Shown here: positions 14,966 through 57,746 of the stretch, piece after piece
Layout of the letters: the number at the start of each line of letters is the position of its first letter
Numbering within the stretch: the stretch's first letter is position 1
Assembly (NCBI GenBank): GCA_023091665.1
Contig: JALJCQ010000014.1
Location: 1 to 64,000 of the forward strand
Source of the DNA: Pythium myriotylum
Taxonomy: Eukaryota > Oomycota > Peronosporomycetes > Pythiales > Pythiaceae
DNA: 64,000 nucleotides
Direction of reading: 5' to 3'
Translations under genes and position numbers: made by a program
The notes under the pieces: model-generated
What the model was told of the DNA's origin: nothing
Seen by the model: only the letters and a program-made list of their open reading frames with translations
The model's database searches: none

Positions 14966-15850
14966 ATGAGCTTCGCTCTCCAGCTCTTCCGCGTCCTCGC
15001 GGCGTCCACATCCACGATGATGATCCTGAGCCCAATTCCATCGATTCTCAAGACTCTGAGAAACAAGCACACGGGTGTGGCCTCCATCGTCCCCCTCGTC
15101 TCAATGTTCACAAATTGTCACATTGCGTACGCCAGCAGAGCAAATGGGAGCGTGCGGTTTGTCTTTACTCATCGTTTTTGTTGCCTCTTCTTCAGGATGA
15201 TGTACGGCTACCTATGCAAGCTTTACTTCCCGGTGTTCTCGACGTTCATCTTTGGCGACATCATGTGCCTTATGTACATCTCCGTGTTCTATCGATTTTC
15301 GCCGGAGAAGACCAAGGCACACAGAATCTTCTTAGTCTTTGGTGTGCCGCTTTCGCTTCTCACACTCTACTCGATCCTCGGAGGCCTCGGCGTGACTGGC
15401 CAAAAGGCATATGACGTTGGGGAAGTCAGCGGGTACGCTGCGATTGTCACGACTGTGATCCTGTACTCATCACCTTTCGAGAAAGTGGCCATGGTGCTCA
15501 AACACAGGTCTGCAGTGTTTATCAACATCCACATGGTGTGCGCCGGCACGTTCAACAACGTCATGTGGATAACCTACACTTACATGGCGAGGGAGTGGCT
15601 AATCTTCATTCCCAACATCTTCTGTTGCACCATGGGCTGTATCCAGATCTCGCTCTACCTCCTGTTCCATCCCAGGAGTCATCCATACGATGGTCCAATT
15701 CCTGGCGTCACGGTCGACAGAGAAACTGCGATACACATCGAGCTCGGCGAACTTTCTCTGGACGGGCACGCTATCACAAACAAGACCCAGCGTGAGAGCT
15801 TTGTAGTCATCGAGTCCCCCTTGGAGCCGTTCACGGGAGCTAAATACTAG
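14966..15850 (+). CDS. SWEET-a, MtN3/saliva sugar transporter, 271 aa
   Basis: First of 23 SWEET-family genes, facilitators that let sugars move down their gradient through plasma or vacuolar membrane. Two exons, 14966-15126 and 15196-15850, with a 69-base phase-2 intron that is itself open. Seven membrane helices: repeat 1 contains TM1 (FALQLFRVLAASTSTMMILS), the LSPIPSI kink, KHTGVASIVPLVSM and pocket-type Asn in NCHIAMMYG; a linker helix follows; repeat 2 contains SPFEKVAMVLKHRSAVF, AGTFNNVMWITY and IPNIFCCTMG. The cytosolic tail ends FVVIESPLEP. Closest in the array to SWEET-j (shared M-x-FALQ start). Nearest neighbour is the kinase pseudogene. Confidence 0.92.
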   Translation: MSFALQLFRVLAASTSTMMILSPIPSILKTLRNKHTGVASIVPLVSMFTNCHIAYASRANGSVRFVFTHRFCCLFFRMMYGYLCKLYFPVFSTFIFGDIMCLMYISVFYRFSPEKTKAHRIFLVFGVPLSLLTLYSILGGLGVTGQKAYDVGEVSGYAAIVTTVILYSSPFEKVAMVLKHRSAVFINIHMVCAGTFNNVMWITYTYMAREWLIFIPNIFCCTMGCIQISLYLLFHPRSHPYDGPIPGVTVDRETAIHIELGELSLDGHAITNKTQRESFVVIESPLEPFTGAKY

Positions 15851-16911
15851 TTGGTAAATGAGACAGTTAATTAAGAGACTGTTGGAATAATGAGCTTACA
15901 AGTTATTACTGGCCACTCTCGAGAAAAATCGACTCGATGCGTTTCGGATCTCTAACCCAGAGATCTATGAGCACAGATCCTTCCTTGACGCTGAGATGGT
16001 TTCATCCGTGATGATCTTAGGGGAAACGGCTCTGTTACCGTACTAGCAAAGGTGGTGGGTGGGCAGTATCGAAGAAATTCGTACTAAACAAAAAATCGAT
16101 GCACGCTACCGCTAATAGACCGGTTGCACCAACATATTGGTTTCAAAGCGAGGGTCATCTAGTTTTGAAGACAGACGACTTTCACTGGTTGCGAAGTCAC
16201 GCCATCGCGCGTCGCAGCGGTGTTCAGTGAGACGACTGTCTCCACTTTGGCAGCCTATGCTCGTACTGTACTGTACATCTGGAAACTTCCACTTGCATAC
16301 GTGTATTGGATCTGATTCCGAGGGAAACCATGGACGCAGCTCAGCGGCCAATAGATTTGTTTCGACGCGGTGTCTCATCGCTGTGAAAATATTCAAACAT
16401 CGAGATTCGTGACACCCCATAGTCTTTTTGCATTGTCCTCTGTTTGGCGAAAAGCCACTGGTGACCAGTGGCTTTTCATGCCAAACGACCATTCTTGTCG
16501 TTCGTAGAGACTCAATCTGAGACCAAGGGAGTGGATATTGTGTACGTAGTGGCTTGTTTCGTACAGCTGGTACGGTATCTATACAAGTCTTACCAAACTT
16601 GACGAAACTTGACGATGTAAGGTTGCACGGAACTGGACGCCTTCGCAGAAGCGATTACGGTACCCCGGTCTTTCTCCACTGAGTATTAGATTTCATTTTC
16701 TTTCGGGTTGACTTCGTAATCTGGACTTGTGTTCCCGCCGATCCGGATAAGCTTTTAGAACCGCATCTTTCCACTGTCGTTGAGTACAACTTCGTTGTGC
16801 CTTTCTGCCGACAGCCACCGAGGCCTCCGTTGACTTTGGCCGGCGAAGCCTTGGGCCTGCCGCGAATGGCTCGATGGTAATCGCCCACAATCCATTTCGA
16901 CTCCAAGAGCA
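15851..16911. other. Spacer between SWEET-a and the P450 gene
   Basis: About 1.06 kb with no credible gene; stops interrupt every frame quickly. It contains the strong hairpin at 16442-16486 listed separately. The last few hundred bases should hold the P450 promoter, but no initiator match was recognised. Confidence 0.5.
16442..16486. repeat. Perfect-stem hairpin
   Basis: Outer arms GTTTGGC (16442-16448) and GCCAAAC (16480-16486) enclose inner arms GAAAAGCCACTGGT (16449-16462) and ACCAGTGGCTTTTC (16464-16477). That is 21 base pairs with a single loop base and a two-base bulge. Too precise for chance; could be a miniature-transposon end pair or a small-RNA precursor. Confidence 0.85.
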
Positions 16912-18477: not shown

Positions 18478-18992
18478 ACTGGACGAGAACGAATTCTTCA
18501 AACTCAACTGCATAAATGAACTTGCGGGTGCCTCGCGCCGGCTCAAGGTTACTACTCCACGGGTAAACCTAATAGACCTCAATTTGATACCAAAAAAAAT
18601 AAATGAAATTGCAATGGGCCGGAAAGACTTCAATCTCGATCGATCGCTTGTTGGCGCGAACAAGTTCGTGGGACAGCGACAGCGGACAGCAATGGGACGC
18701 GCTTTCTCCACCGCAAGAATCTTTACGCTGATTGGATGGCAACTGTGGCAAGTGTGTCGATTACGGTGTTTTAAACAGGTGGACATGTACTTTCTACGGA
18801 ACACTTGAAGTTTGTGAGGGGTCAACTGTAGCCATGTCGGAACGGCAAGTGTTTTAAACAGCGTGATCAGAGCAATCACGAAACCAGTGGTCGCGCGCCT
18901 GCTGCGCGCATGGACGTCAAGAGATCTGGAAAGATCCCTCCATGCGTCAAGCTGTGATGCTTCTCATCTCATTCATCGATTTGCCCATTACC
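18478..18992. other. Spacer upstream of SWEET-b with composite motif
   Basis: No gene. It contains a second copy of the recurrent unit: GTTTTAAAC at 18768, TGTAGCCAT at 18827, GTTTTAAAC at 18851. An initiator-like CTCATTCATCGATTTG lies near 18969, about 20 bases before the ATG of SWEET-b. Confidence 0.55.
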
Positions 18993-19857
18993 ATGTCGGT
19001 CGCGCTCTCGTTCTTCCGCGTGCTGGCAGCCGCCACCTCCATGCTCATGATCCTCAGTCCCGTCCCGACCATGTACCGCATTGCGCGTGCCAAGGTCGTG
19101 GGCCACCACTCGATCGTGCCGCTTGTCTCCATGCTCGCTAACAGCCACATGAAGTAAGCCCTCCCACCCGACAGCATGCACGCTCTCTCGTGACAGCCTC
19201 TCACCACCTTGTGTCTTGGGCACCAACAGCTTGCTCTACGGCTACCTCGTGCACAACATCTTTCCCATCTTCGTAACGTTCGTGGTCGGCGATATCCTCT
19301 CGATCATCTACATCGCCATCTTCTACCGGTACACGGACGACCGCGCGACGGCCAACAAGGCCATTGTTTGTTTCGTCGTACCGCTGACTCTCGTCACGCT
19401 CTACGCCGCACTGGGACCGGTCTTCTTTGGCCAGACCAAGCAACAAGTGGGCGAGACCGTCGGCTACCTCAGCATCGTCTCAACGCTCGTCATGTACAGC
19501 GCTCCATTTGAGAAGATCGGGCTCGTGCTGCAGCACCGCTCGGCCGTCTTCCTCAACATCCACATGGTCGTCACCGGCACGTTCACCAACAGCGTCTGGG
19601 TCACGTACACGGCACTGGCCAAAGAATGGATTATCTTCGCGCCCAACGTCTTCACCGTACTCGCGGGCGTCATCCAGATCGCGCTCTACATCATGTACAA
19701 CCCACGCACCCACCCACTGACCGACTTGGATCTCCCATCCAAATGCGATGACACGATGCCCGTGGCCGTCGTGGTCTCGCCGTCGGCAGCCTGCTCGTCT
19801 ACTGACTTCGTCACGGCACCGACGCCGCGTCCGCTCGCCCCACTCCACCTTGACTGA
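18993..19857 (+). CDS. SWEET-b sugar transporter, 262 aa
   Basis: Exons 18993-19153 and 19230-19857 (76-base intron). Starts MSVALSFFRVLAA and carries the RAKVVGHHS loop between TM1 and TM2 that marks a subgroup with SWEET-c and -e. Exon 2 begins LLYGYLVHNIFP and has the YTDDRATANKA loop where most array members have YSHEK.KAHK. Repeat 2: SAPFEKIGLVLQHRSAVFLN, GTFTNSVWVTY, APNVFTVLAG. The tail keeps only a degenerate terminal motif (DFVTAPTPRPLAPL). Its closest relative is SWEET-e, on the opposite strand 6 kb away. Confidence 0.92.
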
Positions 19858-20109: not shown

Positions 20110-20899
20110 ATGAGTGTCGCCGTCCAAGTGTTCCGCGTGCTCGCGGCCTCCACTTCGGCGCTTATGATCCTCAGCCCCGTGCCGACCATGTGCAGGATCA
20201 TGCGCGCCAAGGTCGTGGGCCATAACTCGATCGTACCGCTTGTCTCTATGCTCGCCAACAGCCACATGAAGTAGGCCCCCCACTGTCTTCTTGATTCCTC
20301 CCGTCACCGCTAACACACCAACTGTCCACAGCATGCTCTACGGGCTTCTTGTCCACAACATCTTCCCCATCTTCGCGACCTTCGCCTTCGGCGTGGTGGC
20401 CTCGCTCACGTACATCGCCATCTTTTACCGATTCACGCACGACCGCGCGACCGCGCACAAGGCGCTCGCTGTGTGCCTCGCGCCGCTGGCGCTCGTCTCG
20501 CTCTACGCTGTGTTCGGACCAGCCATCACCGGCCAGACAAGTCGCGAGGTCGGTGTGACCATCGGATACCTGCGCATCATCTCGACGCTCGTGCTCTACA
20601 GTGCGCCGTTCGAGAAGATCCGACTCGTGCTGCGCCACCGCACGGCTGTCTTCCTCGACTTCCCCATGGTGCTCACGGGTGCTGTGACCAACTCGACGTG
20701 GGTCACCTACGGCGCGCTCGTGAGCGACTGGCTCGTCTTCGCGCCGAACGTGTTCACCGTCCTCGCGGGGCTCGTGCAGCTCGCGCTGTGTATCATCTAC
20801 AGCTCTCGTACCCTCCCGCTCACAGAAGAAGAAGAAGAAGATGCCAGCGGAGACTGCGGATCGTACAAGGAGCAGTTTTCACCGTCCTGCCGCGAGTGA
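20110..20899 (+). CDS. SWEET-c sugar transporter, 242 aa, short acidic tail
   Basis: Exons 20110-20270 and 20332-20899 (61-base intron). MSVAVQVFRVLAAST start and RAKVVGHNS loop place it with SWEET-b and -e; exon 2 begins MLYGLLVHNIFP and the loop reads FTHDRATAHKA. In TM6 an Asp-Phe-Pro (VFLDFPMV) replaces the usual LNIHMV. It is the shortest member: the tail is a Glu run (six acidic residues encoded by GAA/GAT repeats at 20824-20842) and it lacks the conserved terminal motif that the others share. All seven helices are present. Confidence 0.9.
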
Positions 20900-24829: not shown

Positions 24830-25688
24830 ATGACGGTCGCAGTCGATATTTTCCGTGTGCTGGCGTCTGTGTCGTCCACGCTCATGATTCTAAGCCCGAT
24901 CCCGTCCATCTACGAGATGCACAAAGCCAAATCCACGGGCGTCGCGTCCATCGTACCGCTCGTCTCCATGCTCTTCAACTGCCACGTCACGTGAGTCTCC
25001 TCTCGCAATATTTTCACTGGTCCAGTTCGCTTGAGACTGACACTCGTCTGGCGAATGTAGGATGCTTTACGGGTACATGGACAAGAATATCTTCCCCGTC
25101 GTCACGACCTTCCTCACGGGCGATGTCTGCTCTCTGATTTACATCGCTGTCTTCTACTGGTACACTGAGGACAAGGCCTTCGCACACAAGGCGATGGCTG
25201 GCTTTGGAAGTGCGACGCTGCTATGCACGCTCTACGCTATCCTCGGCGGCTACGGCGTGACTGGCCAGAGCCGCGACAATGTCACGCTCACGATCGGCTA
25301 CCTCTGTGTGATCGCGACGGTCGTGCTCTACACGTCGCCCTTTGAGAAGATCGGCCAGGTGCTCAAGCACCGCTCGGGTGTCTTCATCCCGATCCACATG
25401 GTCGTCGCCGGTGTTGCCAGCAACGGCATGTGGCTCGTTTACGCGGGACTCGTGAGCGAGTGGATCATCCTTGCACCCAATGCATTCTGCTTCGTCATGG
25501 GCATCGTTCAGATCGTCGTGTACCTCGTCTTCCACCCACGCACGCACCCACTGCAGCTCGACTCGGTCCACCTCGTGAACCTCGAGGCAGGCCATGGCGA
25601 CAAGTACACCAAGGTCGCACCGGCTACGGGAAGTCCGTGTTTCGTACCCATCCAGTCGCCTCCACTCGTGAACACGCAGCAAGCATGA
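24830..25688 (+). CDS. SWEET-d sugar transporter, 262 aa
   Basis: Exons 24830-24990 and 25061-25688 (70-base intron, donor GTGAGT). MTVAVDIFRVLASVSSTLM start; repeat 1 ends NCHVTMLYGYM. The central loop has YTEDKAFAHKA, and GGYGVTGQSR follows the linker helix. Repeat 2: SPFEKIGQVLKHRSGVFIP, AGVASNGMWLVY, APNAFCFVMG. The tail ends SPCFVPIQSPPLVN. The stop codon is 74 bases from the stop of the convergent SWEET-e, so their 3' ends probably overlap. Confidence 0.92.
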
Positions 25689-25762
25689 ACCAGACTATTG
25701 CAACAAGTAGAGTAATTGTGAAAATGAATTCTCACATCCCCCATCCAAACGATTGCTACGAT

Positions 25763-26609
25763 TCAGTCCAAGCGGAAAGACGTGAGAGAGCTCGGCGTCT
25801 GCGAGAGCACGTAGTTGGTGGAGAAGTCGTCAGTCTGAGCGACCCCAACCTCTTCGTCCTTCTTGGCTTGCTCCTCTATGTTGTCAACGAGCGGGTGCGT
25901 TGCCGGGTAGTACATGATGTACAGCGCAATCTGCGCGAACCCAGCCACAGCCGTGAATGCCGAGGACGAGAACACGATCCACTCGTCCTCAAGCACCGTG
26001 TACGTGACCCAGACGCTGTTGGCGAATGTGCCTGTGACGACCATGTGGATGTTGAGGAAGACAGCCGATCGATGCTTGAGCACCAGTCCAATCTTCTCAA
26101 AGGGCGAGCCGTAGAGCAGCAGTGTCGCTACGATGCCTAGGTACCCGACAATGCGGCCGACGTCGTGGCGCGTCTGACCGAAGAGCTCCGCACCGAAGAT
26201 CGCATAGAGCGTGACGATAGCGAGCGGTACGACAAAGCAGGCAATGGCCTTGTTGGCTGTCGCGCGGTCGTCAGTGTATCGGTAGTAGATGGCGATGTAG
26301 ACAATGGAGAGGATATCGCCGACCACGAACGTCGCAAAGAGAGGAAAGATGTTGTGCACGAGGTAGCCGTAGAGCAAGCTAGCAAGCAGCCGAGATTAGC
26401 TCTCTCGAAACCGTTGAGCCATGCGCAAGGAAGACAGTGGGAGCCTACTTCATGTGGCTATTGGCGAGCATGGAGACAAGCGGCACGATCGAGTGGTGGC
26501 CCACGACCTTGGCTCGAAGAATGCGATGGATGGATGGGATGGGGCTCAGGATCATGAGCAGCGAGACCGAGGCCGCAAGCACGCGGAAGACCGAGAGCGC
26601 GACCGACAT
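25763..26609 (-). CDS. SWEET-e sugar transporter, 258 aa
   Basis: Minus strand, exons 26609-26449 and 26378-25763 (70-base intron). Starts MSVALSVFRVLAASVSLLM; has the RAKVVGHHS loop, LLYGYLVHNIFPLF and YTDDRATANKA, so it is the inverted sister of SWEET-b. Repeat 2: SPFEKIGLVLKHRSAVFLN, GTFANSVWVTY, SSSAFTAVAGFAQ, where the usual A/G-P-N before the last helix is replaced by Ser. The tail ends with a degenerate motif (NYVLSQTPSSL). The sequence just upstream of its ATG is a pure pyrimidine-rich tract on the coding strand. Confidence 0.92.
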
Positions 26610-27510: not shown

Positions 27511-28335
27511 ATGGGCTTCTTTCACTCGTTCTTCAAAGTCATCCCCGCGTGCACGTCCACGATCATGTTCTTGAGTCCGATCCCGTCTATTTACACGGCC
27601 TACAAAACGAAGACCACGGGTGTTGGCTCCATCGTGCCGCTCGTCTCCATGCTCACGAACCTCTACATCGGGTGGGTGCTTGTTAGCAGTCTTCATTACT
27701 TTCAAGCCCTCTTGCTAATCCGGGACAGCATGACCTTTGGATATCTCTCAGAGCTTTACTTCCCGGTTTTCTGGACGTCGCTGCTTGGCGTGCTGCTCTC
27801 GCTCGTCTACATCGCAGTTTTCTACAGATACTCCCACGAAAAGCCCAAGGCCCACAAAGTTTTCTTGGGCTTCGGGTCGGCGCTCGCTCTTGTGACGTTG
27901 TACGCGTTTATCGGGGGTTTCGGAGTCACCGGTCAGAGCCGCCACGCCGTCGGACAGATCGTCGGTGACGTCGGCATCGCCGCGACGGTGATCCTGTATA
28001 CATCGCCATTCGAGAAAATCAACCTGGTGCTCAAGTACAAGTCAGCCGTCTTCCTTAACATCCACATGGTCTGCGCTGGCACGTTCAACAACGCCATGTG
28101 GGTCTGCTACGGCTTCATGATGAAGGAGTGGGTCATCTTCGCGCCCAACGTCTTTTGCTTCACCATGGGCTGTATCCAGATCTCACTCTACATGATTTAC
28201 CACCCAAGCACGCACCCGTACGATGGATCTCTGCCTGGTCAAGACGCGGATGTGGAAGCTGCCAGAATGGGAACTACGAAAGCTGCGACAAGAGAGAACA
28301 GCTTTCGGGCAATTGCGTCCCCACTTAAGTCGTGA
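27511..28335 (+). CDS. SWEET-f sugar transporter, 255 aa
   Basis: Exons 27511-27671 and 27729-28335; the 57-base intron is the shortest in the array and a multiple of three, so the unspliced frame stays open. Starts MGFFHSFFKVIPACTSTIM, a subgroup with SWEET-g, -h and -i. Repeat 1 ends NLYIGMTFGYL. Loop YSHEKPKAHK. Repeat 2: SPFEKINLVLKYKSAVFLN, AGTFNNAMWVCY, APNVFCFTMG. The tail is short and ends NSFRAIASPLKS, so the terminal motif is the actual C-terminus. Confidence 0.92.
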   Translation: MGFFHSFFKVIPACTSTIMFLSPIPSIYTAYKTKTTGVGSIVPLVSMLTNLYIGWVLVSSLHYFQALLLIRDSMTFGYLSELYFPVFWTSLLGVLLSLVYIAVFYRYSHEKPKAHKVFLGFGSALALVTLYAFIGGFGVTGQSRHAVGQIVGDVGIAATVILYTSPFEKINLVLKYKSAVFLNIHMVCAGTFNNAMWVCYGFMMKEWVIFAPNVFCFTMGCIQISLYMIYHPSTHPYDGSLPGQDADVEAARMGTTKAATRENSFRAIASPLKS

Positions 28336-45182: not shown

Positions 45183-45261
45183 CCCTGTAAGTCCAACCGT
45201 GTCTAAAATTTAGAGGAATCACAATTATGATTGCAATCAAGGCGTAGCGAGTTGGTCTTTA

Positions 45262-48200
45262 TCATGGTGAGATGTTTCTCTTGCCAGAAACTTCACGCAG
45301 AAACTTTTCGAGGTACCCTCCTTCCTGCATGAGATCGAAGAAATGCCCCGATCCTTTGTTCACCAGCTCGGTTGGCGATGCGAATTCGATAATTTCACCT
45401 CCTTCTAAAACAACGATGCGGTCCGAGTCGAGGATCGTGTCTAAACGATGCGCGATCGTCAGCACTGTAGACTCCGCAAACACATCGCGAATGACCCGTT
45501 GCAACTGAATGTCCGTCTCGCGATCGATAGCGGCAGTCGCTTCGTCAAAGATGACGATACGGGACTGACGTAGGAGCGCACGAGCCATGCATAGCATCTG
45601 CCGCTCGCCAACACTGAAGTTGTCTCCGTTCTCTTCAACAGCACACTCAAGCTTCTGTTCCTCAGAACCAATGCGATCGCTGAGGCCTACGCGGCGAATG
45701 GCGTGCCACAGCTTGTCATCAGAGTACTCATTGAAAGGATCCAGGTACGCGCGCAGCGGGCCTTTGAATAGTACAGGGTTCTGGGGGATGATGGACAGTT
45801 TCTCACGAAGCGTTGCGAGACCGAGCTTGGCGATGTCGACGCCGTCGATGCGAATGGTACCCGAGGCAAGCTCGTTGATGCGGAAGAGAGCCATGGTGAG
45901 ACTAGTTTTTCCCGCGCCGGTGCGTCCGACGATCCCGACCTTAAGGCCACCCTCAACCCTGAACGTGACTTCTCGAAGTACGAGCTTGTCATTGACTTTG
46001 TACCGGAAAGAGACGTCATCGAATACAATCGCGCCATTGGATGGCCACTCTGGATGCCTTGGCGGGTCGTGGGAGAGATTGCGACGAGGAGCTTCCTGGG
46101 GGATGTCGATGTATTCTTGCACGCGCTCGGGGCTCACCATGATGGTTTCGATGTACGCGAGCGAGTCAACAATGTTCTCAAGGTTTTGAGAGACGTTCAA
46201 CGCGTAGGAGAACGCGAGGCCGATAACAGCAGGGCTCAGCTCATCGTGGAGCACCACGAGCGAACAGGTGACGATGAGCACGAGCGCGCTGCCTAACAAC
46301 TGGATGCGGAGGGAGAACCACTGCGACACGGAGAGCTCAGCGTACACTATCTTGGTAGCACCGTCAAGCTTTTGAAAGTTCGTCGACTGGAATCGCTCAA
46401 TCTGGTATGAACCATAGGCTCGCAAAACAGAGACGCCATCGACGGACTCGGAGAGATGGCAAAGCACGGGGGCTTGGGACGTAAGAGTGAGCCGTTGAAT
46501 TTCGCGAGCTGGCTGAATGTAGAACGAACCGAAGGTCGCGTAGAGGTACGCAACGGGAAGCAAGAAGATGGCCTTCCACTGGATCACGATAGCGGCTGTG
46601 AGCGCGCAGCTACCGACGGAAAACACTTGAGCGAACAAAGAACCAAACGCAAACGGTACATCGTCGTCGATCGCGTAAATATCGCTGCCGTACCGCGTCA
46701 GGATGCGACCTATGGGGTTCACATCGAAGAATCGCATAGGTGCAAAGATCAGCGAATGCGTCATCCTGTCAAAGAGATATTTAGCAGCCTTGAGACCAAA
46801 GAACGTGACCATCAGCGTTCGCACCAGCACCATGGCCGCTGAGAGAAGGCCGAGAGCTGAATACACAGTCAATCGATACGTCGTGGACATCTCAGATGAT
46901 GCGAGCTCGGTTCTCTCCGCGACTCGGACGCTATCACCCGACCAACTGCTCAGCCAAAAGTCGCTCGCCACTTGCAGCGACTGCCAGAGCACCTGGGATA
47001 GTACGATTACTGAAACAACAGGGAATCCGCCCACCGCTCGGTAGTACCCAGCAAACACGTGACCACCCGTTCGACCCTCTGCACGGAACTCATCTTGGAT
47101 CAGCTTGCCGCTCTCGGTTGCGGTCTGGTCCTTTGTCAATTCAGTGCTCGAATGTGTCACAGTCGCAACCCGGACAGTGTCCATGACCTCTGGCTTTCGT
47201 GCCGCCAGTGGTGACATCAGTGGCTGGTATGGCGGCTTTGTCAACGTTTTCCTCGTCTCTACTAGCGCACCGTTCTCATCGATCGTGATCGCATGCGTTG
47301 CGTGCTCAGACGCGATGATTTCTGGGTTGTGGGTTACCAAGATGATTGTCTTGTTGCGCAGCAAACTCAGCAGACACTTGGTGAAGATTTCGTTCTGCAC
47401 GGTCGCGTCCACGGCCGACAAAGGCGAGTCCAACAGGAAGATACTGGCGTCACTGTAACACGCGCGAGCCAGCGCGATGCGAGCCTTCTGGCCGCCCGAC
47501 ATGTTCACGCCTCGCTCCCCAATCTCGGTCAAGTCTCCAGCTGGAAGCGACGCCAAATCCGGTAGGAGTGCACATGCTTCGATAACCTTATTGTACTTGT
47601 TGCTTTCGAATGGCAGACCAAAGAGGATGTTGTCGCGCACCGTCATGTTCTGGATCCACGGCTGCTGCGAGCAGTACGCAATGCTGCCACCGACGTAGAC
47701 GGTTCCGCTCAATTTAACAATTTCGCCGAGAAGCGCCGAACATAAGGACGATTTGCCGCACCCGACAGAGCCGTGGACGACGTAGAAGTCACCGACTTTT
47801 ATCTCGAGGTTGATATTGCGCAGCACGGAGGTGGTTTGGTCCCAGCCAAAGGACGCATTTTCCATTGCGATGATGACGTCTCTCTTTGCATATTCTGCCG
47901 CTCGAGGGTCACTCGCTGTGATGATGCCACCTTCGTCGATCTCGGGGAGGCTTAAGAACTCGGTGACGCGTTCAAGCGCCACTTTGGACTGGATGACCCT
48001 TGTGATGACGTGAGTGATGAAGCGCAGGGGGCGTCGGATCATTTGGAAGAGCGTTAAGCTCGTGAAGACGACAGCAGGCGTCAGCTCTCGCTGAAGCACA
48101 ACCGAATAGACACCAAACGAGGCGATGCTGATGAACACCGGCATTCCCCACATCAGCACGAGGCTCGCGCTGAAGTAAAGTCCACAGGCCAGAAGGTCTC

Positions 48201-49101
48201 GGAGCTCCTTGGTTCGTGTGGTTTGGATTTCCTCGAGACACCTCTCTTCCCATGCATTGTACTTGACAATACTGATCGCTTTGAAGACTTCGGTCACCTT
48301 TTTCATGCGCGCATCTCGACTAGAGCGATAGACGCGTGTCATTCGGAACGTTCCCTTCGAGATCACGTGGTTTATAATCAGCGTGATGACAATGATTCCG
48401 ATTCCAGCAAACGCCGCTTCGTGGAGAAGTCTGTAAAGCATGAAGCTCACGATCGATATTTGCAATGGCAAGAGCCACAGCTTGTGCACCGTGATGGAAA
48501 GACTGCGAACCGCGTCGCTGTCTGACGTGTACATGTTAGTAATATCGCTCGTGGACTTCTCCATTCGGGACTTGGTGCTTAGACGCATGGTTTTGTCGTA
48601 AAGCAGCGACTTGACGCAGCTCACAAATTCCATTGCGACGAGCTGGGACTCCATCGTCGTGTAGTTGTCCACGAGTGCCTGCAACACTTGCGACAGCGTC
48701 ATAGCAACCACCCAGACGGAAATGTCTCCTACCGAGAACGTTGCGTTCGTGAGGCTCGAGACAACGTGGTTGAGAACCAACGGACCGACGAGCGACGCCA
48801 ACAAGCCTACGAGTGATGCGATCCCCGTCGCGAAGAAGCGCAAGCCGAAGAGTTTAATGAACGACCTCGGAATGGATCGCGAGAATTTGAAAGACTCCAT
48901 GAACCTAGCTGACAAGACCTTGGACTGGCGTTGCTTTTCCAAAGACCAGATATCATTCGCACAGAGTTGCTTGCGCTGACCGAGTGCCATGAGCGGCGAA
49001 ACCCACGTGAGCAAGAGGCGAGAGCCCCACCATGCGTTGCTGCGCGGGTTCGACGGCGGGGCCGCGGCTTCGAAGGTGGCGTACTTGGCTGGCTGGCCCA
49101 T
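45262..49101 (-). CDS. ABC transporter, ABCC/MRP subfamily, 1279 aa
   Basis: Full-length ABCC exporter without a TMD0 domain, single exon, ATG at 49101. A short cytosolic head with SRLLLTWVSPLMALG precedes TMD1 (about 90-370). NBD1 has Walker A GSVGCGKSS (about 442), signature MSGGQKARIALARA and Walker B IFLLDSPLSAVD (Asp for the catalytic Glu, usual in ABCC). TMD2 follows (about 690-960). NBD2 has Walker A GRTGAGKTS (about 1057), signature FSVGERQMLCMARALL, Walker B IVIFDEATAAID and switch His in TIAHRLDT. Such pumps export glutathione or other conjugates and xenobiotics, at the plasma or vacuolar membrane. It splits the SWEET array into two blocks and is convergent with SWEET-q. A functional link with sugar transport is not implied by the sequence. 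Confidence 0.95.
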   Translation of the reverse strand: MGQPAKYATFEAAAPPSNPRSNAWWGSRLLLTWVSPLMALGQRKQLCANDIWSLEKQRQSKVLSARFMESFKFSRSIPRSFIKLFGLRFFATGIASLVGLLASLVGPLVLNHVVSSLTNATFSVGDISVWVVAMTLSQVLQALVDNYTTMESQLVAMEFVSCVKSLLYDKTMRLSTKSRMEKSTSDITNMYTSDSDAVRSLSITVHKLWLLPLQISIVSFMLYRLLHEAAFAGIGIIVITLIINHVISKGTFRMTRVYRSSRDARMKKVTEVFKAISIVKYNAWEERCLEEIQTTRTKELRDLLACGLYFSASLVLMWGMPVFISIASFGVYSVVLQRELTPAVVFTSLTLFQMIRRPLRFITHVITRVIQSKVALERVTEFLSLPEIDEGGIITASDPRAAEYAKRDVIIAMENASFGWDQTTSVLRNINLEIKVGDFYVVHGSVGCGKSSLCSALLGEIVKLSGTVYVGGSIAYCSQQPWIQNMTVRDNILFGLPFESNKYNKVIEACALLPDLASLPAGDLTEIGERGVNMSGGQKARIALARACYSDASIFLLDSPLSAVDATVQNEIFTKCLLSLLRNKTIILVTHNPEIIASEHATHAITIDENGALVETRKTLTKPPYQPLMSPLAARKPEVMDTVRVATVTHSSTELTKDQTATESGKLIQDEFRAEGRTGGHVFAGYYRAVGGFPVVSVIVLSQVLWQSLQVASDFWLSSWSGDSVRVAERTELASSEMSTTYRLTVYSALGLLSAAMVLVRTLMVTFFGLKAAKYLFDRMTHSLIFAPMRFFDVNPIGRILTRYGSDIYAIDDDVPFAFGSLFAQVFSVGSCALTAAIVIQWKAIFLLPVAYLYATFGSFYIQPAREIQRLTLTSQAPVLCHLSESVDGVSVLRAYGSYQIERFQSTNFQKLDGATKIVYAELSVSQWFSLRIQLLGSALVLIVTCSLVVLHDELSPAVIGLAFSYALNVSQNLENIVDSLAYIETIMVSPERVQEYIDIPQEAPRRNLSHDPPRHPEWPSNGAIVFDDVSFRYKVNDKLVLREVTFRVEGGLKVGIVGRTGAGKTSLTMALFRINELASGTIRIDGVDIAKLGLATLREKLSIIPQNPVLFKGPLRAYLDPFNEYSDDKLWHAIRRVGLSDRIGSEEQKLECAVEENGDNFSVGERQMLCMARALLRQSRIVIFDEATAAIDRETDIQLQRVIRDVFAESTVLTIAHRLDTILDSDRIVVLEGGEIIEFASPTELVNKGSGHFFDLMQEGGYLEKFLREVSGKRNISP

Positions 49102-49840: not shown

Positions 49841-50653
49841 TTACACTTGATTCAGTGGAGACAATGGCGACCGGAGGGCTACGAAAGCCAATGAGTCTCT
49901 TCTATCATCTCCAATGTCATGAATCTTCATTGGTGAGAGAACCAACGACACGGAGGACCGACGCTGTTCGGCTTCTTTGATCTCGACAGGTTCGAAAAGA
50001 AGGGGGTGCTTGGAAGGATGAAAGACCCAGTACAGAGCAATCTGTAGCAGGCCTAGCACGAGCAGGAACGCGTTGGGTGCAAATACCATCCAGTCGATAT
50101 CGAGCAGACTGTAAACGACCCATGAGGCCGAGTTCGCTGCTCCAACAGTGACGATTTGGATAGGAATGAAAATAGCCGACCGATGCCGAAACACCAAGCG
50201 GATCTTCTCAAGTGGAGACGAGTACATCACGAGCGACGATGTCATACCAATATAACCGACTACTTTCCGAACGCTTGAGTAGCTCTGGCTGGTGTATCCA
50301 TTTGCACCAAGGATCGCGTAGAGCGAGTTGATCACCACGACCAGTGCGAAAACGGCCATGCACTTGCGAGCATAGCCCTTCTCAGTCGTGTAGTGGTAAT
50401 AGACGCCCACATACACGCAGGCTGCGAGTACACCGAATGCGCAAGTGCCAAACAGTGCGATGTAGTCTCCCGACAAGTAGCCGTAGGTCATCCAGATATG
50501 TGCGTTCGAGACCATCGAGGCGAGCGGAAGAAACGGCATGGGGCCCGTCGACTTGTCGCGATCAATCTTGAGCATCGTAGGGACGGGACTGAGGAACATG
50601 ACGGTGTTGAGCACAGTCGCGAGAACGCGGAAGATCTGGACAACGACACCCAT
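49841..50653 (-). CDS. SWEET-r sugar transporter, 270 aa, intronless
   Basis: Minus strand, one exon. MGVVVQIFRVLATVLNTVMFLSP start. With SWEET-s it forms a distinct pair: DKSTGPMPFLPLASMVSNAHIWMTYGYLSGDY. These two are the only array members that keep the Trp of the canonical plant N-C-x-x-W-x-x-Y-G motif. Loop YTTEKGYARK; GANGYTSQSYSSVRK. Repeat 2: SPLEKIRLVFRHRSAIFIP, GAANSASWVVYSLL, APNAFLLVLG. Tail AFVALRSPLSPLNQV is the very C-terminus. The intron site is perfectly closed. Confidence 0.92.
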   Translation of the reverse strand: MGVVVQIFRVLATVLNTVMFLSPVPTMLKIDRDKSTGPMPFLPLASMVSNAHIWMTYGYLSGDYIALFGTCAFGVLAACVYVGVYYHYTTEKGYARKCMAVFALVVVINSLYAILGANGYTSQSYSSVRKVVGYIGMTSSLVMYSSPLEKIRLVFRHRSAIFIPIQIVTVGAANSASWVVYSLLDIDWMVFAPNAFLLVLGLLQIALYWVFHPSKHPLLFEPVEIKEAEQRRSSVSLVLSPMKIHDIGDDRRDSLAFVALRSPLSPLNQV

Positions 50654-51021: not shown

Positions 51022-51831
51022 TTATGCTTGCTGGAGTGGGGCCAAAGGAGACCGCAACGCGACGAACCCAGGTGTAGCTTCTTTGGTGTCGTCGAGCGTG
51101 AGAGTGGACGAGCGGTGGCCACCGGCGTCTTCCTTCGCAATCGCAAGTTCGAGATCGTCGACAAAGCTCTCGTCGGTGAATGGGTGCTTGGACGGGTGGA
51201 AGACCCAGTAAAGAGCGACCTGCACGACCCCTATCACGAGCAGAAACACATTGGGCACAAATACAATCCAATCCCTGTCGAGGATTGTGTAGATGACCCA
51301 AGAGGCAGAGTTGGCTGCACCGACGGAGACAATCTGGATCGGGATGAACACAGCCGAGCGGTGCTTGAACACGAGACGAATCTTCTCGAGCGGTGACGTG
51401 TACATGACGATCGACGACGTGGTCGCGATATACCCGATGATCTTTCGGACATCGTCATAGCTCTGGTTGGTGTACCCGTTTGCACCGAGGATCGAGTACA
51501 GCGAGTTGAAGAGAATCACAGAGCCAAACACGGCCAAGACCTTGTGGGCATAGCTCTTCTCCGCAGTGTAGCGATAATAGATGGCGACGTACACTAGTGC
51601 AGCGAGCACGCCAAACGCGCACGTGCCAAAAAGCGCCACATAGTCTGCCGACAGGTATCCGTACACCATCCATACATGGGCATTCGACACCATGCAGGCC
51701 AACGGGACGAACGGCATGTGTCCAGTCGACTTGGTGCGGTGGATGTCTCGCATCGTCGGGATCGGACTCAAGAACATGACGGTGTTGAGCACGGTGGCGA
51801 TGTAGCGGAAGATCTCGACGAACACTCCCAT
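51022..51831 (-). CDS. SWEET-s sugar transporter, 269 aa, intronless
   Basis: Minus strand, tandem partner of SWEET-r with high protein identity throughout. MGVFVEIFRYIATVLNTVMFLSP; TKSTGHMPFVPLACMVSNAHVWMVYGYLSADY; YTAEKSYAHK; GANGYTNQSYDDVRK. Repeat 2: SPLEKIRLVFKHRSAVFIP, GAANSASWVIYTIL, VPNVFLLVIG. Tail GFVALRSPLAPLQQA at the C-terminus. No intron. The M-P-F after the TM1-TM2 loop resembles canonical eukaryotic SWEETs more than the rest of the array does. Confidence 0.92.
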   Translation of the reverse strand: MGVFVEIFRYIATVLNTVMFLSPIPTMRDIHRTKSTGHMPFVPLACMVSNAHVWMVYGYLSADYVALFGTCAFGVLAALVYVAIYYRYTAEKSYAHKVLAVFGSVILFNSLYSILGANGYTNQSYDDVRKIIGYIATTSSIVMYTSPLEKIRLVFKHRSAVFIPIQIVSVGAANSASWVIYTILDRDWIVFVPNVFLLVIGVVQVALYWVFHPSKHPFTDESFVDDLELAIAKEDAGGHRSSTLTLDDTKEATPGFVALRSPLAPLQQA

Positions 51832-52489: not shown

Positions 52490-53296
52490 ATGCCTGCTGC
52501 CGTCGATATCTTCCGTGTGCTGGCCTCGTGTACGTCGCTTGGCATGTTGCTCAGCCCTGTACCATCAATCGTCACTATCATCACGTCCAAGTCCACAGGC
52601 GTTTCTTCCATTGTGCCATTTGTATCGATGTTTACCGACTGTTATGTCAGCATGCTTTACGGCTTCCTCAGCAAGCATTACTTCCCCGTGTTCTCCACGT
52701 TCGCTACTGGCGTTGGGCTCTCGATCGTGTACATTTGCATCTTCTATCGCTTCTCACCCGAACGGACCAAAGCAAATCGATTGTTCTGCTTCTTTGGGAC
52801 GCCTTTGCTCCTCATCACGGTTTATGCGGCCCTGGGATTTCTTGGTGTTGCAGGACTTACTCGCGAAAAAACGGGGCTCGTTGTCGGGTACATTTGTTCA
52901 CCGACGACCGTTTTGCTGTATGCGTCACCACTTGAAAAGCTCCGGCAGGTCATCGCGCTCCGATCGGCTGCATTCATCCCAATCCACATGGTCATCGCAG
53001 GAGCCATCAACAATGCAATGTGGATCGCGTACAGTCTGCTAGCACACGACTGGATTGTCTTTGCTCCTGTGACCTTCTCGTTCGTCGTCGGGTGTATCCA
53101 CATTCTACTCTACGTCGCCTTCCACCCGAGCACTCATCCTGTCACCCTCGACGAACACAGCGAAAAAGTATCAAGCACGTCAACGCAAGACATTCTGAGC
53201 ATAATCGAGGAAGGAACGGCACCGGATAGTGACACCAGCTCAGGGGTCTCTGATCCGTGGGTTTTCGTTGTTTCTCCGTTGAGTGCGGCGGGATAG
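52490..53296 (+). CDS. SWEET-t sugar transporter, 268 aa, intronless, pocket Asn changed
   Basis: One exon; ATG at 52490 (MPAAVDIFRVLASCTSLGM). The intron site reads DCYVSMLYGFLSKHYF: Asp stands where the other 22 members have the Asn of repeat 1 (N-C/S/A/V-x-x-x-M-x-Y/F-G). Loop FSPERTKANR, as in SWEET-a (FSPEKTKAHR). Other oddities: GLTREKTGLVVGYICSPT, and YASPLEKLRQVIALRSAAFIP in repeat 2, where the K/R-H-K/R-S-A-V motif reads ALRSAA. TM6 AGAINNAMWIAYSLL. Tail DPWVFVVSPLSAAG, a shortened terminal motif. Stop is 53 bases from the convergent SWEET-u. Confidence 0.9.
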   Translation: MPAAVDIFRVLASCTSLGMLLSPVPSIVTIITSKSTGVSSIVPFVSMFTDCYVSMLYGFLSKHYFPVFSTFATGVGLSIVYICIFYRFSPERTKANRLFCFFGTPLLLITVYAALGFLGVAGLTREKTGLVVGYICSPTTVLLYASPLEKLRQVIALRSAAFIPIHMVIAGAINNAMWIAYSLLAHDWIVFAPVTFSFVVGCIHILLYVAFHPSTHPVTLDEHSEKVSSTSTQDILSIIEEGTAPDSDTSSGVSDPWVFVVSPLSAAG

Positions 53297-53349
53297 TCAT
53301 ATTTCTATATTCTAAGTTTCTATGACAATGTATACACACATTGAAAATT

Positions 53350-54227
53350 CTAGACTGGTGACTCGAGCACACGTGGGGACTCGATTGTGACAAAGTAGTA
53401 CGGGCTCTCGCAGCTTGTATCGGTATCGCTAACCATTGGTGGGCGAGGCTCGTTCTTATCGGACGTCATCTCCACATCGTGAGGAGTCACAACAGGGAGC
53501 TCGGGAGCGGGGTGCGTACTCGGGTGGTAGATCCAGTAGAGCGCAATTTGAAAGCAGCCCGAGATTGCGGAGAACGAGTTTGTGGCCAAGATGATCCAGT
53601 TGTCCGTGAGCGCGCAGTAGAAGACCCACATGATGTTGCAAATCGTGCCGGCGTAAATCATTTGGATGTTGAAGAAGACAGCCGACTTGTACTTGAGCAC
53701 GGGCCGCACCTTCTCGAGCGGTGAGGAGAAGACGACGAGACCGGTGAGTACGCTAAAGTAGCTGATAATCTCGCCGGCTTGATGTCGGGTTTGATGGGTG
53801 ACGCCGAAGCCGCCGAGGAGCGCGTAAATGGACAGGCCAACGTAGGGAATTCCGAAGAGCAAGAACACTCTGTGCGCCTTGGACTTTTCGTTTGAGTAGT
53901 AGTAGAACACAGCGACGTAGAAAAGGGAGACGATGTCGCCGGTGACGAATGTTGTGAAGATTGGGAAGTACTTCTTTGTAAGGTAGCCAAACATCATCCT
54001 GTCGGATATGGCAGCACGACATCATGAGAAACAATCGGGAAACAAATATCAATTTGAAGTACTCACAGGACGTGAAAGTTGGTGAGCATTGCCACGAGCG
54101 GCACGATTGACATGTAGCCCGTAGATTTGGCCTTGTGGACGCGTACGAGCGACGGCACGGGGCTGAACAGCATGACAAGCGACGAACACGTCGCGAGCAC
54201 ACGCGAGACGTCGACGAGGACCGTCAT
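53350..54227 (-). CDS. SWEET-u sugar transporter, 269 aa
   Basis: Minus strand, exons 54227-54067 and 53998-53350 (68-base intron, donor GTGAGT). Exon 1 gives MTVLVDVSRVLATCSSLVM, KSTGYMSIVPLVAMLTNFHVLMMFGYLTKKYFP. Loop YSNEKSKAHR; GGFGVTHQTRHQAGE. Repeat 2: SPLEKVRPVLKYKSAVFFN, AGTICNIMWVFYCAL, ATNSFSAISGCFQ, with no Pro before TM7. Tail SPYYFVTIESPRVLESPV. It is the intron-bearing relative of the intronless SWEET-v and -w. Confidence 0.9.
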
Positions 54228-55072: not shown

Positions 55073-55891
55073 TCATACAAGTCTTTGAATTGAGGCAGGG
55101 CGAAGAAGCATCTTCGGTGACTGGATCTCTACGAAATAGGGACTCTCACAGCTTGTCTTGGAATCGCTTCGAGCAGTTTTACCCACTGCCACCTCGATGT
55201 CCACGCTACCGGATTCAACGACACCGGGAAGTTCTGGTGCTGGATGCGTACTTGGGTGGTAGATCCAGTAGAGCATAATTTGGAAGCACCCCGACACGAG
55301 CGAGAACGAGTTGGGCGCGAAGATGATCCAGTGGCTCGTGAGCGAGCTGTAGATGACCCACATGAGGTTGTTGAGCGTGCCGGCGTAGATCATGTGGATA
55401 TTGAAGAAGACGGCGGACTTGTGTTTGAGCACGGGTCCGACTTTTTCTAGTGGCGAGGAGAAGACGATGATGCCGGAGACGATGCTGAAGTATCCGATGG
55501 TGTTTCCGACTTCGTGTCTTGTTTGGTTGGTGACGCCGAAACCTCCGAGGAGTGCGTAGATGGAGAGTCCGATGTAGGGTATTCCGTAGAGGAGGAAGAC
55601 CTTGTGGGCCTTGGCTCTCTCGTGCGAATACCGATAAAACAACACGACGTAGGTAAGCGAGATGAGGTCGCCGACGACGAACGTGCCGAAGACTGGGAAG
55701 TATTGCTTGGTGAGGTATCCGAACATCATGAGGATGTGGACGTTGGTGAGCATGGAGACGAGTGGCACGATGGAGGCGTAGCCCGTGGACTTGGTCTTGT
55801 GTGCATTTAAAATCGACGGCAGCGGGCTCATGAGCATCGTGAGAGACGAGCACGTCGCAAGCACGCGAGAGATATCGACGATCACGGTCAT
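55073..55891 (-). CDS. SWEET-v sugar transporter, 272 aa, intronless, inverted twin of SWEET-w
   Basis: Minus strand, one exon, ATG at 55891 (MTVIVDISRVLATCSSLTMLMSP). From KSTGYASIVPLVSM through repeat 2 (SPLEKVGPVLKHKSAVFFN, AGTLNNLMWVIYSSL) the protein equals SWEET-w, encoded by 470 bases (55317-55786) without a single difference. TM1 and the tail differ. A-P-N-S-F-S-L-V-S-G precedes TM7. Tail SPYFVEIQSPKMLLRP. The intron site reads NVHILMMFGYL with no intron. Its TM1 sequence resembles SWEET-u, suggesting v descends from u-like stock. Confidence 0.92.
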   Translation of the reverse strand: MTVIVDISRVLATCSSLTMLMSPLPSILNAHKTKSTGYASIVPLVSMLTNVHILMMFGYLTKQYFPVFGTFVVGDLISLTYVVLFYRYSHERAKAHKVFLLYGIPYIGLSIYALLGGFGVTNQTRHEVGNTIGYFSIVSGIIVFSSPLEKVGPVLKHKSAVFFNIHMIYAGTLNNLMWVIYSSLTSHWIIFAPNSFSLVSGCFQIMLYWIYHPSTHPAPELPGVVESGSVDIEVAVGKTARSDSKTSCESPYFVEIQSPKMLLRPASIQRLV

Positions 55892-56885
55892 GATGGAGGT
55901 GGATGGATTGGGGCCCTGGAGGCGAGTTGCGGAGTGAGACCAAGCGACGAAAGGAGGGTTGGAATGGAGGAAGACCCGGCTCATGGCGTGGTTTCATGGA
56001 TGGATCTGATTGGCTCGTGGGTGAGCTGGTGATCACGCGTTCCTCAGTAGATGGCTACACTAGCTGCCTCAGTGTGACCAAAAGCTGGGATGTTTTGGGC
56101 ACGTTGTGGCACAATTCCGTTTGTTCACGTAGTCAAGTGCATGGGACAGGCGAGCTCTGTCTCAGGAGACCTGCGAGGTCAAACGCCGTCTCTCGGCATC
56201 GACTCCTCGAGTCTTCTGAAGTTTGTCCTCCAGTCGAAGATCCGGAGACCATTTGATGTAGGTTTTCTAGGAGAAAAGTCCCGGTTCACTCTTAGTGATC
56301 AGTCCAATTTTGTACATGTACCTCTTGATGAGCTCTTGAAGAATACACACACGCACGTACACTCCAGGAGCTCCAATCCAATCCCAACTGGCGGGTAATA
56401 CGCGAGAAGCCCACATGGGATTCTTTCCGGTGGTGGCAGTTTTGACGAACTCGAACGAGTTATTAATGTCTAGTCTCCAGGGCAAAAGCGCACCGGTAGC
56501 ATGGCTACAATCATACCGGTACGCCCGACGTGAAATACCAGTCTAGTCGCTGTCTCCAGCCACCACATTGTGCGTGATGACGGTGACTAGATCGATCGAT
56601 TGAGAACCCGAGGGCTCTATCCGCGACACGCGAGCAGGTCCACGGATCTTGCTTAAGCGGCCTTCGCTGGTGCTCGAGGGCGATGAGGTAACCAGCTCTT
56701 GACGCATAAACACCTGATGAGGCAATCTATTATGTTGTTGGTATGTTGCTGTACTGACACTTTTAGCCAGAACGTGAATATATATTGCTAGCATATACTC
56801 ACATATAGTTCAAATTGGGTTTATTGGATGAATTGTCCCGGTACATACGTCGCTTGGAGGGCACGGTCTCACTTGCCAATTCACC
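55892..56885. promoter_or_regulatory. Spacer between inverted SWEET-v and SWEET-w
   Basis: 994 bases forming the centre of an inverted duplication; the two halves of the spacer are not obviously similar. It holds promoters for both genes, an initiator-like site for each, and ATGGCTACA at 56051 and 56502. No gene recognised. Confidence 0.5.
55923..55940 (-). promoter_or_regulatory. Initiator-like site, SWEET-v
   Basis: Minus strand GTCTCACTCCGCAACTCG; TCACTCCGCAACT resembles the oomycete core with C for T at one place. It lies about 31-49 bases before the ATG at 55891. Confidence 0.45.
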
Positions 56886-57746
56886 ATGACGGTCGTCGTC
56901 GACATCTTCCGCGTGCTCTCGTCCTGCACGTCCATGGCCATGATCCTGAGCCCCGTGCCGCTCATCGCCAAGGCCTGTCGCACCAAAACAACGGGCTACG
57001 CCTCCATCGTGCCACTCGTCTCCATGCTCACCAACGTCCACATCCTCATGATGTTCGGATACCTCACCAAGCAATACTTCCCAGTCTTCGGCACGTTCGT
57101 CGTCGGCGACCTCATCTCGCTTACCTACGTCGTGTTGTTTTATCGGTATTCGCACGAGAGAGCCAAGGCCCACAAGGTCTTCCTCCTCTACGGAATACCC
57201 TACATCGGACTCTCCATCTACGCACTCCTCGGAGGTTTCGGCGTCACCAACCAAACAAGACACGAAGTCGGAAACACCATCGGATACTTCAGCATCGTCT
57301 CCGGCATCATCGTCTTCTCCTCGCCACTAGAAAAAGTCGGACCCGTGCTCAAACACAAGTCCGCCGTCTTCTTCAATATCCACATGATCTACGCCGGCAC
57401 GCTCAACAACCTCATGTGGGTCATCTACAGCTCGCTCACGAGCCACTGGATCATCTTCGCACCCAATTCTTTTTCGCTCGTGTCGGGGTGCTTCCAAATT
57501 ACGCTCTACTGGATCTACCACCCGAGTCGCCATCCGTTGCCCGAGTTACCAGGCGTCGAAGAGACCTTACCAGGCGTCGAAGAGACCTCAAGCGCTGACC
57601 TTGAGATGGGACTCGCCCCACTGGCGTCTCCTTCCGCCCGTGATGATCTTCAGAGAAAGGGAGAGCTGCAGAGTCCGTGCTACGTCGCACTACCTTCCCC
57701 TTTAGAGCCTCTGAGGTCAATCTCGACAAGAAAAGAAGCCTTATAA
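56886..57746 (+). CDS. SWEET-w sugar transporter, 286 aa, intronless
   Basis: Last SWEET of the array, one exon, ATG at 56886 directly after an initiator-like TCACTTGCCAATT (56868-56880). MTVVVDIFRVLSSCTSMAM, TM1 kink LSPVPLI, then the 470-base block identical to SWEET-v (56991-57460). After TM7 the sequence changes to HPSRHPLPELPGVEE. A 21-base unit is duplicated in tandem (57546-57566 and 57567-57587), giving LPGVEET twice. Tail SPCYVALPSPLEPLRS. Stop is 34 bases from the convergent START-FYVE gene. Confidence 0.92.
   Translation: MTVVVDIFRVLSSCTSMAMILSPVPLIAKACRTKTTGYASIVPLVSMLTNVHILMMFGYLTKQYFPVFGTFVVGDLISLTYVVLFYRYSHERAKAHKVFLLYGIPYIGLSIYALLGGFGVTNQTRHEVGNTIGYFSIVSGIIVFSSPLEKVGPVLKHKSAVFFNIHMIYAGTLNNLMWVIYSSLTSHWIIFAPNSFSLVSGCFQITLYWIYHPSRHPLPELPGVEETLPGVEETSSADLEMGLAPLASPSARDDLQRKGELQSPCYVALPSPLEPLRSISTRKEAL
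57546..57587 (+). repeat. In-frame 21-bp tandem duplication in SWEET-w
   Basis: TTACCAGGCGTCGAAGAGAC plus C occurs twice head to tail without differences, so it is recent. It adds seven residues to the cytosolic tail and is absent from the twin SWEET-v. Confidence 0.9.

Follow-up and report, generated by a model that had tools for sequence, protein, structure and literature searches.

A short aromatic-Ser/Thr-Pro motif shared by the tails of oomycete SWEETs and of unrelated transporters

The window analysed here, a 64-kb stretch of Pythium myriotylum DNA (positions 1-64000 of contig C14, in a genome of 58.7 Mb and 55 contigs), contains an array of 23 genes of the SWEET family (PF03083), named a to w. 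The tails of their products carry a short motif, an aromatic residue followed by an aliphatic residue or Ala and then by Ser/Thr-Pro, which occurs more often than expected by chance, is under selective constraint, and is found at either the N- or the C-terminal end of proteins from unrelated transporter families. It is very likely a functional linear motif. The explanation we favour, with a probability of about 0.48, is that of a lineage-restricted linear motif of cytosolic tails, which would be read by a shared adaptor under the control of phosphorylation and would act in trafficking or turnover.

Counting the aromatic residue as position 0, the aliphatic residue or Ala is at +3, the Ser or Thr at +5 and the Pro at +6. 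Three patterns were scored: R0, [FYW]xxxx[ST]P; R1, [FYW]xx[LIVMFA]x[ST]P; and R2, [FYW]xx[LIVMF]x[ST]P, which is R1 without Ala at +3. Each of the 23 SWEET tails was taken as everything past helix 7 up to the stop codon (median length 52 residues), and the chance level was estimated by 2000 within-tail shuffles of each tail. R0 was present in all 23 tails (shuffled mean 0.91), R1 in 21 (0.30) and R2 in 20 (0.25), and R2 was preceded by [ST]Px in 13; none of these four counts was reached in any of the 2000 shuffles. The three exceptions to R2 have Gln (c), Ala (b) or Ser (e) at +3. In SWEETs, the motif lies 15-48 residues past the last membrane helix. A preliminary description of this DNA had assigned SPx[FY]VxLxSPLxP to 22 of the 23 proteins. 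This is true of the degenerate form only, since the literal form, written S-P-x-[FY]-V-x-[LIV]-x-S-P-L-x-P so as to allow L, I or V in seventh position, is found in 6 of 23 tails (i, j, k, m, n and w). The same description had c as the only member without the motif; Gln does replace the aliphatic residue there, but the aromatic is kept five residues ahead of the Ser of the SP pair. The array and the sites, as read from the tail translations, are the following.

14966-57746, both strands: array of 23 SWEET genes (a to w) carrying the motif, from PF03083 matches and tail reading
15791-15829, + strand: SWEET a, tail motif RESFVVIESPLEP
19798-19836, + strand: SWEET b, tail motif with Ala at +3, STDFVTAPTPRPL
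20855-20893, + strand: SWEET c, degenerate site with Gln at +3, CGSYKEQFSPSCR, the aromatic being five residues ahead of the SP Ser (SYKEQFSPS)
25632-25670, + strand: SWEET d, tail motif SPCFVPIQSPPLV
25784-25822, - strand: SWEET e, degenerate tail site with Ser at +3, STNYVLSQTPSSL
28294-28332, + strand: SWEET f, tail motif at the C-terminus, ENSFRAIASPLKS
29522-29560, + strand: SWEET g, tail motif SPMYYPVVSPPLQ
31032-31070, + strand: SWEET h, tail motif SPMYNPVVSPPLD
32702-32740, + strand: SWEET i, strict tail motif SPSYVALKSPLEP, whose 7-mer YVALKSP is identical in ABC transporter L060
33925-33963, + strand: SWEET j, strict tail motif SPSFVAVKSPLEP
35210-35248, + strand: SWEET k, strict tail motif SPSFVPLASPLEP
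36369-36407, + strand: SWEET l, tail motif GNYFVPITSPLQA
37769-37807, + strand: SWEET m, strict tail motif SPLFVPLESPLEP
39468-39506, + strand: SWEET n, strict tail motif SPHFVPLESPLEP
41257-41295, + strand: SWEET o, tail motif SPLFVSLESPLPA
42772-42810, + strand: SWEET p, tail motif THEFVLVASPLRP
45111-45149, + strand: SWEET q, tail motif SPCYASVASPLTP
49856-49894, - strand: SWEET r, tail motif SLAFVALRSPLSP
51037-51075, - strand: SWEET s, tail motif TPGFVALRSPLAP
53249-53287, + strand: SWEET t, tail motif with Trp as the aromatic, SDPWVFVVSPLSA
53365-53403, - strand: SWEET u, tail motif PYYFVTIESPRVL
55106-55144, - strand: SWEET v, tail motif SPYFVEIQSPKML
57672-57710, + strand: SWEET w, strict tail motif SPCYVALPSPLEP

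The window genes were identified as SWEETs by PF03083. Two PF03083 stretches were found in member i, the family being defined by two MtN3_slv repeats, seven helices and the SWEET fold. Gene models place the tail in the last exon, which extends to the stop codon; by script, 15 genes were modelled with two exons and 6 with one, c and d being outside these counts. Plant and animal SWEETs are not known to have such a motif in their tails. The top structural matches to the model of member i were AtSWEET13 (5xpd) and OsSWEET2b (5ctg), which the array proteins resemble in fold and family, but the sequence match stops at query residues 212-213, ahead of the oomycete tail.

Codon usage and structure prediction bore out the proposal of a linear motif that is conserved while the disordered tail around it drifts. 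Across the window SWEETs, the invariant Pro is encoded by every one of the four CCN codons (10, 7, 4 and 2 times) and the invariant Ser by every one of the four TCN codons (7, 6, 5 and 3 times), so that silent sites have been scrambled and the residues retained. For 18 gene pairs from seven subgroups, the pooled ratio of nonsynonymous to synonymous differences per site (pN/pS) came to 0.35 over the 13 codons of the motif, 0.63 over the remaining tail and 0.30 over the membrane part. The motif is thus constrained about as much as the membrane part, and more strongly than the rest of the tail. It has a low pN at a pS of 0.69, the tail and the membrane part having a pS of 0.68 and 0.59. The Fisher p value for the pN/pS contrast (5e-8) is nominal only, because the pairs overlap and the motif region was picked for being conserved. 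In the AlphaFold2 model of member i the helices are of high confidence, and the tail blocks from residue 231 have a predicted local distance difference test score (pLDDT) of 39-54; the two blocks at 251-270, where the motif lies, score 49 and 54 versus 39-46 around them, a small rise at most. Given this disorder of the tail in the monomer model of i, intramolecular docking was rejected as the main idea.

SWEETs v (55073-55993, - strand) and w (56832-57746, + strand) are inverted neighbours with a 555-base stretch of 98% identity in the membrane part. Their pS is 0.16 across the whole membrane part versus 0.78 in the tails, a pattern that points to recent gene conversion or duplication ending ahead of the tail.

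The SWEET array extends past the window, to about 137 kb of contig C14, and PF03083 revealed more SWEETs at 250 kb of this contig and on contigs C4, C6, C8, C12 and C17; the profile search gave 65 matches in the whole genome. Thirteen tails beyond the window were cut by script, of which 11 have R0, 10 have R1 and 9 have R2. R2 was read in four frames of C4 (FVQVETP, FVAIESP, FVAIHTP and FTSLQTP, the last also among the 13), in one of C6 (FHAVESP) and in two of C12 (YIEVQTP, FAILETP). The SWEET at 250 kb of C14 has R0 only, and the motif was not found in the tails of the divergent SWEETs on C8 and C17. Protein-database searches yielded 11 distinct SWEET-like sequences, among which Phytophthora, Nothophytophthora and Globisporangium are named. 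Seven of the 11 carry R2 (P0001-P0004 and P0007-P0009), contrary to the lack of the motif in oomycete SWEETs outside the array that would have refuted the preliminary description. Their tails include SPVFVALESPLAPL (P0001), SPAFMALESPLEPL (P0003), SPEYKAMQSPLEPL (P0008, Phytophthora ramorum by source name), SPVYASLRSPLEPL (P0009) and FAAIQSP (P0004, Globisporangium ultimum). P0005 (Nothophytophthora) has R0 only, the sequence of P0010 stops ahead of the tail, and the motif was not found in P0006 or in the plant protein P0011. No description of such a tail motif was found in the open-licence PMC literature, judged by titles and abstract openings; the excerpts of three papers on oomycete SWEETs (PMC5742349, PMC5635513, PMC5176271) treat number, clades, clustering or expression, with no such tail motif.

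A restriction of the motif to SWEET tails, also considered in the preliminary description, was disproved: the core occurs in MFS hexose, full-length ABC and folate-biopterin transporters of the same genome and in a few others, which rules out a SWEET-only motif. About nine families were sampled in all, mostly at one protein end each, the non-SWEET sets being samples of longer match lists. For the MFS hexose transporters (PF00083), R2 was found in the C-tails of 6 of 9 genes, these nine being the ones scored among 83 first-look candidates and four of the six positives being near copies. Their C-terminal ends read SPKYAAVQTPV, SPKYVPVSTPEAV, SPKYASVSTPES and similar; L035 has R0 only, and L034 and L042/L043 are without the motif. 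Four hexose transporter genes (L036-L039, C27:855789-869315) lie in mixed orientation with equal Pfam scores and identical last 20 residues, suggestive of a recent amplification.

In the ABC_membrane family, 20 N-tails from frames of at least 1270 residues were read out of 73 matches, and R0 was present in 20, R1 in 19 and R2 in 18, for shuffled expectations of 0.70 (R1) and 0.50 (R2). Among 12 folate-biopterin (PF03092) N-tails read out of 108 matches, R1 was present in 8 (shuffled 0.27) and R2 in 2, the +3 residue being mostly Ala; Ala was let into R1 only after these first tails had been seen, so that the held-out set alone is a fair test. The prediction for that set, fixed beforehand, was that R1 would occur in a majority of each of two groups of new N-tails, 11 of folate-biopterin and 4 of ABC transporters. 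R1 was found in 10 of 11 (R2 in 8) and in 4 of 4 (R2 in 3), respectively. The four ABC proteins, with frames of 1259, 543, 727 and 820 residues, were called full-length from a second membrane-domain match just downstream. The core common to the families is [FY]xx(aliphatic or Ala)x[ST]P, and the leading Ser-Pro, also seen in MFS, and the SPLxP extension are family-specific decoration. Most of the folate-biopterin proteins L146-L154 and L195-L205 have another conserved N-tail block after the motif, approximately (E/D)GGALRxGG or EDGALRxGG.

Hexose transporters were then compared across species named from the sequence sources, using 120 listed of 658 found, four of which had no complete tail by script. 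All named hits among these listed matches are oomycetes, and they were grouped by order. Again among the matches listed, R1 was present in 48 of 56 proteins from Peronosporales and Pythiales (shuffled 0.37), with R2 in 41, in 1 of 26 from Saprolegniales, and in 22 of 34 without a source name. Of these 26 Saprolegniales proteins, 23 (shuffled 2.3) retain (aliphatic or Ala)x[ST]P without the aromatic residue. The hexose-transporter profile, SPx[FY]VE(V/I)K(S/T)P, is near that of the SWEETs, including the leading SP and the V at +1.

R1 was rare in the low controls, with 1 of 82 tails pooled: kinase N-sides (0/20), mitochondrial carrier N-sides (0/15), amino-acid permease N-sides, which have short tails (0/20), N-tails of pleiotropic drug resistance (PDR) pumps (0/12) and AT3 acyltransferases (1/15). 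Shuffles, controls and the held-out test together rule out a chance origin of the motif. The single match among these controls, an AT3 acyltransferase-like membrane protein (L031/L114, C29:154312-154334, - strand), has the N-tail SFVMLQSPLAPV, and the 14 other AT3 proteins are without the motif. The L031 tail had first been met among the non-SWEET matches of a degenerate DNA pattern. A genome-wide short-protein search gave nothing beyond its own source.

How might such a motif act? It consists of [FY]-x-x-(L/I/V/M/A)-x-(S/T)-P, V being frequent at +1, and would lie in disordered cytosolic tails of several unrelated transporter families, the SWEET version being decorated to SPx[FY]Vx(L/I/V)xSPLxP. 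The end that carries the motif is presumably cytosolic in each family where it is widespread, going by the general topology of these families. The aromatic and the aliphatic residue are compatible with a binding groove, and most likely one shared cytosolic adaptor would bind their side chains. Phosphorylation of the Ser/Thr-Pro by a proline-directed kinase, of the mitogen-activated (MAPK) or cyclin-dependent (CDK) type, would switch this binding, and the adaptor would control how carriers are delivered to the surface, retained or turned over. That unrelated carriers have this peptide at one terminus or the other argues for a shared reader rather than for gating of each carrier. Control by phosphorylation is rather probable, and for an action on trafficking or turnover rather than on transport gating the odds are about even. 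At +5, Ser and Thr are exchanged (S21/T2 in SWEETs, T16/S4 in ABC, S26/T23 in MFS, T9 in the first folate-biopterin set), and in all 23 SWEET and 20 ABC tails the residue is Ser or Thr, never an acid, which fits a regulated phosphosite. The Ser/Thr-Pro at +5/+6, the pattern of a proline-directed phosphosite in sequence terms, is likewise invariant in these 23 and 20 tails.

Several observations weigh against this explanation. Counts within a family concern paralogs, which are not independent; of the nine families tested, about three to four count as independent units. Ala at +3 was admitted post hoc, and in the first folate-biopterin set R2 occurs in only 2 of 12 tails; Tyr is the prevailing aromatic in ABC and folate-biopterin tails, and the held-out set has fewer cases of Ala at +3 than the first; both points slightly lower the odds of this explanation and slightly raise those of a YxxPhi signal, discussed below. 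The C-sides of folate-biopterin transporters lack R1 (0/8). Four of five half-size ABC frames are without the motif, the fifth (L193) having an N-tail that reads like those of the long genes, as are 8 of 10 further ABC stretches (N-tails and linkers) for R1, the matches being L167 (R2) and L170 (R1). Three of five MFS_1 proteins have no motif at both ends looked at, the matches being L182 on the N-side (R2) and L177 on the C-side (R1). PDR pump and amino-acid permease N-sides are devoid of it although a plasma membrane location is expected. The degenerate DNA pattern gave 20 matches genome-wide, 6 in SWEETs and 14 elsewhere, and its reversed control gave 10, so that non-SWEET matches are at chance level. 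YSSIPTP occurs as a single match in a PP4R3-like frame of the window (12557-13129, + strand). This frame is probably the C-terminal portion of a PP4R3 gene, whose PF04802 match is at 9463-11490, and its product is probably soluble. Finally, the choice of a conserved region biases the pN/pS contrast, and the gene pairs behind it overlap.

A different possibility is that the motif is a kinase substrate site only, the aromatic and aliphatic residues serving as docking and -2 specificity of a MAPK/CDK-like kinase, with phosphorylation altering transport or oligomerisation directly and no adaptor being involved. The invariant Ser/Thr-Pro with Ser/Thr exchange would be expected from such a site, and so would the reduced core that Saprolegniales hexose transporters keep (23 of 26 versus 2.3 by shuffling) with the aromatic missing. 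We nevertheless hold it to be unlikely, as a single direct gating mechanism is hard to reconcile with motifs in N-tails (ABC, folate-biopterin) as well as C-tails (SWEET, MFS), and the tail of SWEET i is disordered in the monomer model.

The nearest known motifs are YxxPhi and the Atg8-interacting motif, or LC3-interacting region (AIM/LIR), and neither fits fully, because of the frequency of Phe in SWEET and MFS, the Ala at +3 in some of the folate-biopterin transporters and the invariant Ser/Thr-Pro. If the motif were a sorting signal of the classical YxxPhi type, recognised by the mu subunit of an adaptor protein (AP) complex, the Ser/Thr-Pro would be incidental or modulatory. The aromatic-x-x-aliphatic arrangement in cytosolic tails of membrane proteins, 15-48 residues past the last helix in SWEETs, is that of such signals, and Tyr exceeds Phe among the ABC tails (Y14 F6) as well as the first folate-biopterin tails (Y8 F1). 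Classical YxxPhi signals, however, are known to need Tyr, whereas Phe is at least as frequent in SWEETs (F15 Y7 W1) and MFS (F26 Y23). At +3 the picture is mixed: a bulky hydrophobic residue stands there in 20 of 23 SWEETs, and Ala in 7 of 49 MFS motifs and, among folate-biopterin motifs, in 6 of 9 from the first set and 2 of 10 from the held-out set. The Ser/Thr-Pro present in 23 SWEET and 20 ABC tails lies outside the YxxPhi pattern. This identification, too, is unlikely.

An AIM/LIR, with the core [WFY]xx[LIV], would direct carriers from the surface into autophagy or to the vacuole, with nearby phosphorylation as an enhancer. R2 amounts to this core followed by x[ST]P, and is found in most members (20/23 SWEET, 18/20 ABC, 41/56 MFS and 8/11 held-out folate-biopterin tails); W is also present, in SWEET t. 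But the first folate-biopterin set, with mostly Ala at +3, has R2 in 2 of 12 only, AIMs do not require a Ser/Thr-Pro at +5/+6, which is invariant here, and acidic residues just upstream of the motif are not general. We consider this reading quite improbable. The PP2A-B56 motif, [LMFI]xx[ILV]xE in an excerpt of PMC10970375, is similar in its hydrophobic residues at 1 and 4 and in its modulation by nearby phosphorylation, and it was ruled out since position 6 is Ser or Thr, followed by Pro, and not Glu in 23/23 SWEET and 20/20 ABC tails. Lastly, a functionless, SWEET-only relic of recent tandem duplication and gene conversion, although the 23 genes form one paralogous array in which v and w are 98% identical over 555 bases, is extremely improbable, and as a pure duplication relic is ruled out by the codons, because pS in the motif (0.69) is about the same as in the tail and the membrane part, yet pN is low, the v and w tails differ (pS 0.78) at the motif location, and unrelated families carry the same core.

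The adaptor explanation may be taken further, tentatively and with less confidence than for its general form. In Peronosporales and Pythiales, [FY]xx(aliphatic or Ala)x[pS/pT]P could be one address-and-turnover tag on importers (SWEET, hexose MFS, folate-biopterin) and on ABC drug exporters, recognised by just one adaptor particular to this lineage and by one proline-directed kinase, and switching all of them together, and Saprolegniales would have kept the kinase half only, (aliphatic)x[ST]P. If this holds, unrelated carrier families in a major group of microbes associated with plants have a common control handle, and the placement and recycling of oomycete surface transporters, which are little studied, become directly testable with short peptides. 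The handle would have changed within oomycetes: Peronosporales and Pythiales hexose transporters have the full aromatic form, those of Saprolegniales only the aliphatic-x-Ser/Thr-Pro half. The motif also supplies annotators with a profile for cytosolic tails.

Among window frames of at least 150 residues, R2 occurs in the 20 SWEET tails and in four other places. Two of these are an ABC linker and the PP4R3-like frame; the other two are a helix within SWEET t and a probably non-coding frame that overlaps SWEET d. The ABC linker belongs to a transporter gene located mid-array:

45262-49101, - strand: ABC transporter gene (PF00664 and PF00005)
47200-47238, - strand: motif core in the linker of this transporter, KPPYQPLMSPLAA

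The linkers of two ABC transporters, this one (47200-47238, - strand) and L170, carry PPYQPLMSPLAA and SPYNPAVTPLAP, which are closest to the SWEET form.

Upstream of the motif, SWEET tails contain a second block, [DN][LIVMF]E, in many cases extended by xG (DIELG, DLEMG, DLEAG; for example in m, w and p). It is present in 14 of the 23 window tails, for a shuffled expectation of 2.1. This block resembles the di-acidic DxE signal for export from the endoplasmic reticulum, of which it may be a counterpart; it is a separate element from the aromatic-Ser/Thr-Pro motif. Two SWEETs without the motif (x5 and x6, at L004:3094-3258 and on the minus strand of L005) have tails that terminate in a common RxAYGAINA. 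Elsewhere in the window, positions 6978-8996 (- strand) encode a polytopic-looking protein of 672 residues with no Pfam match.

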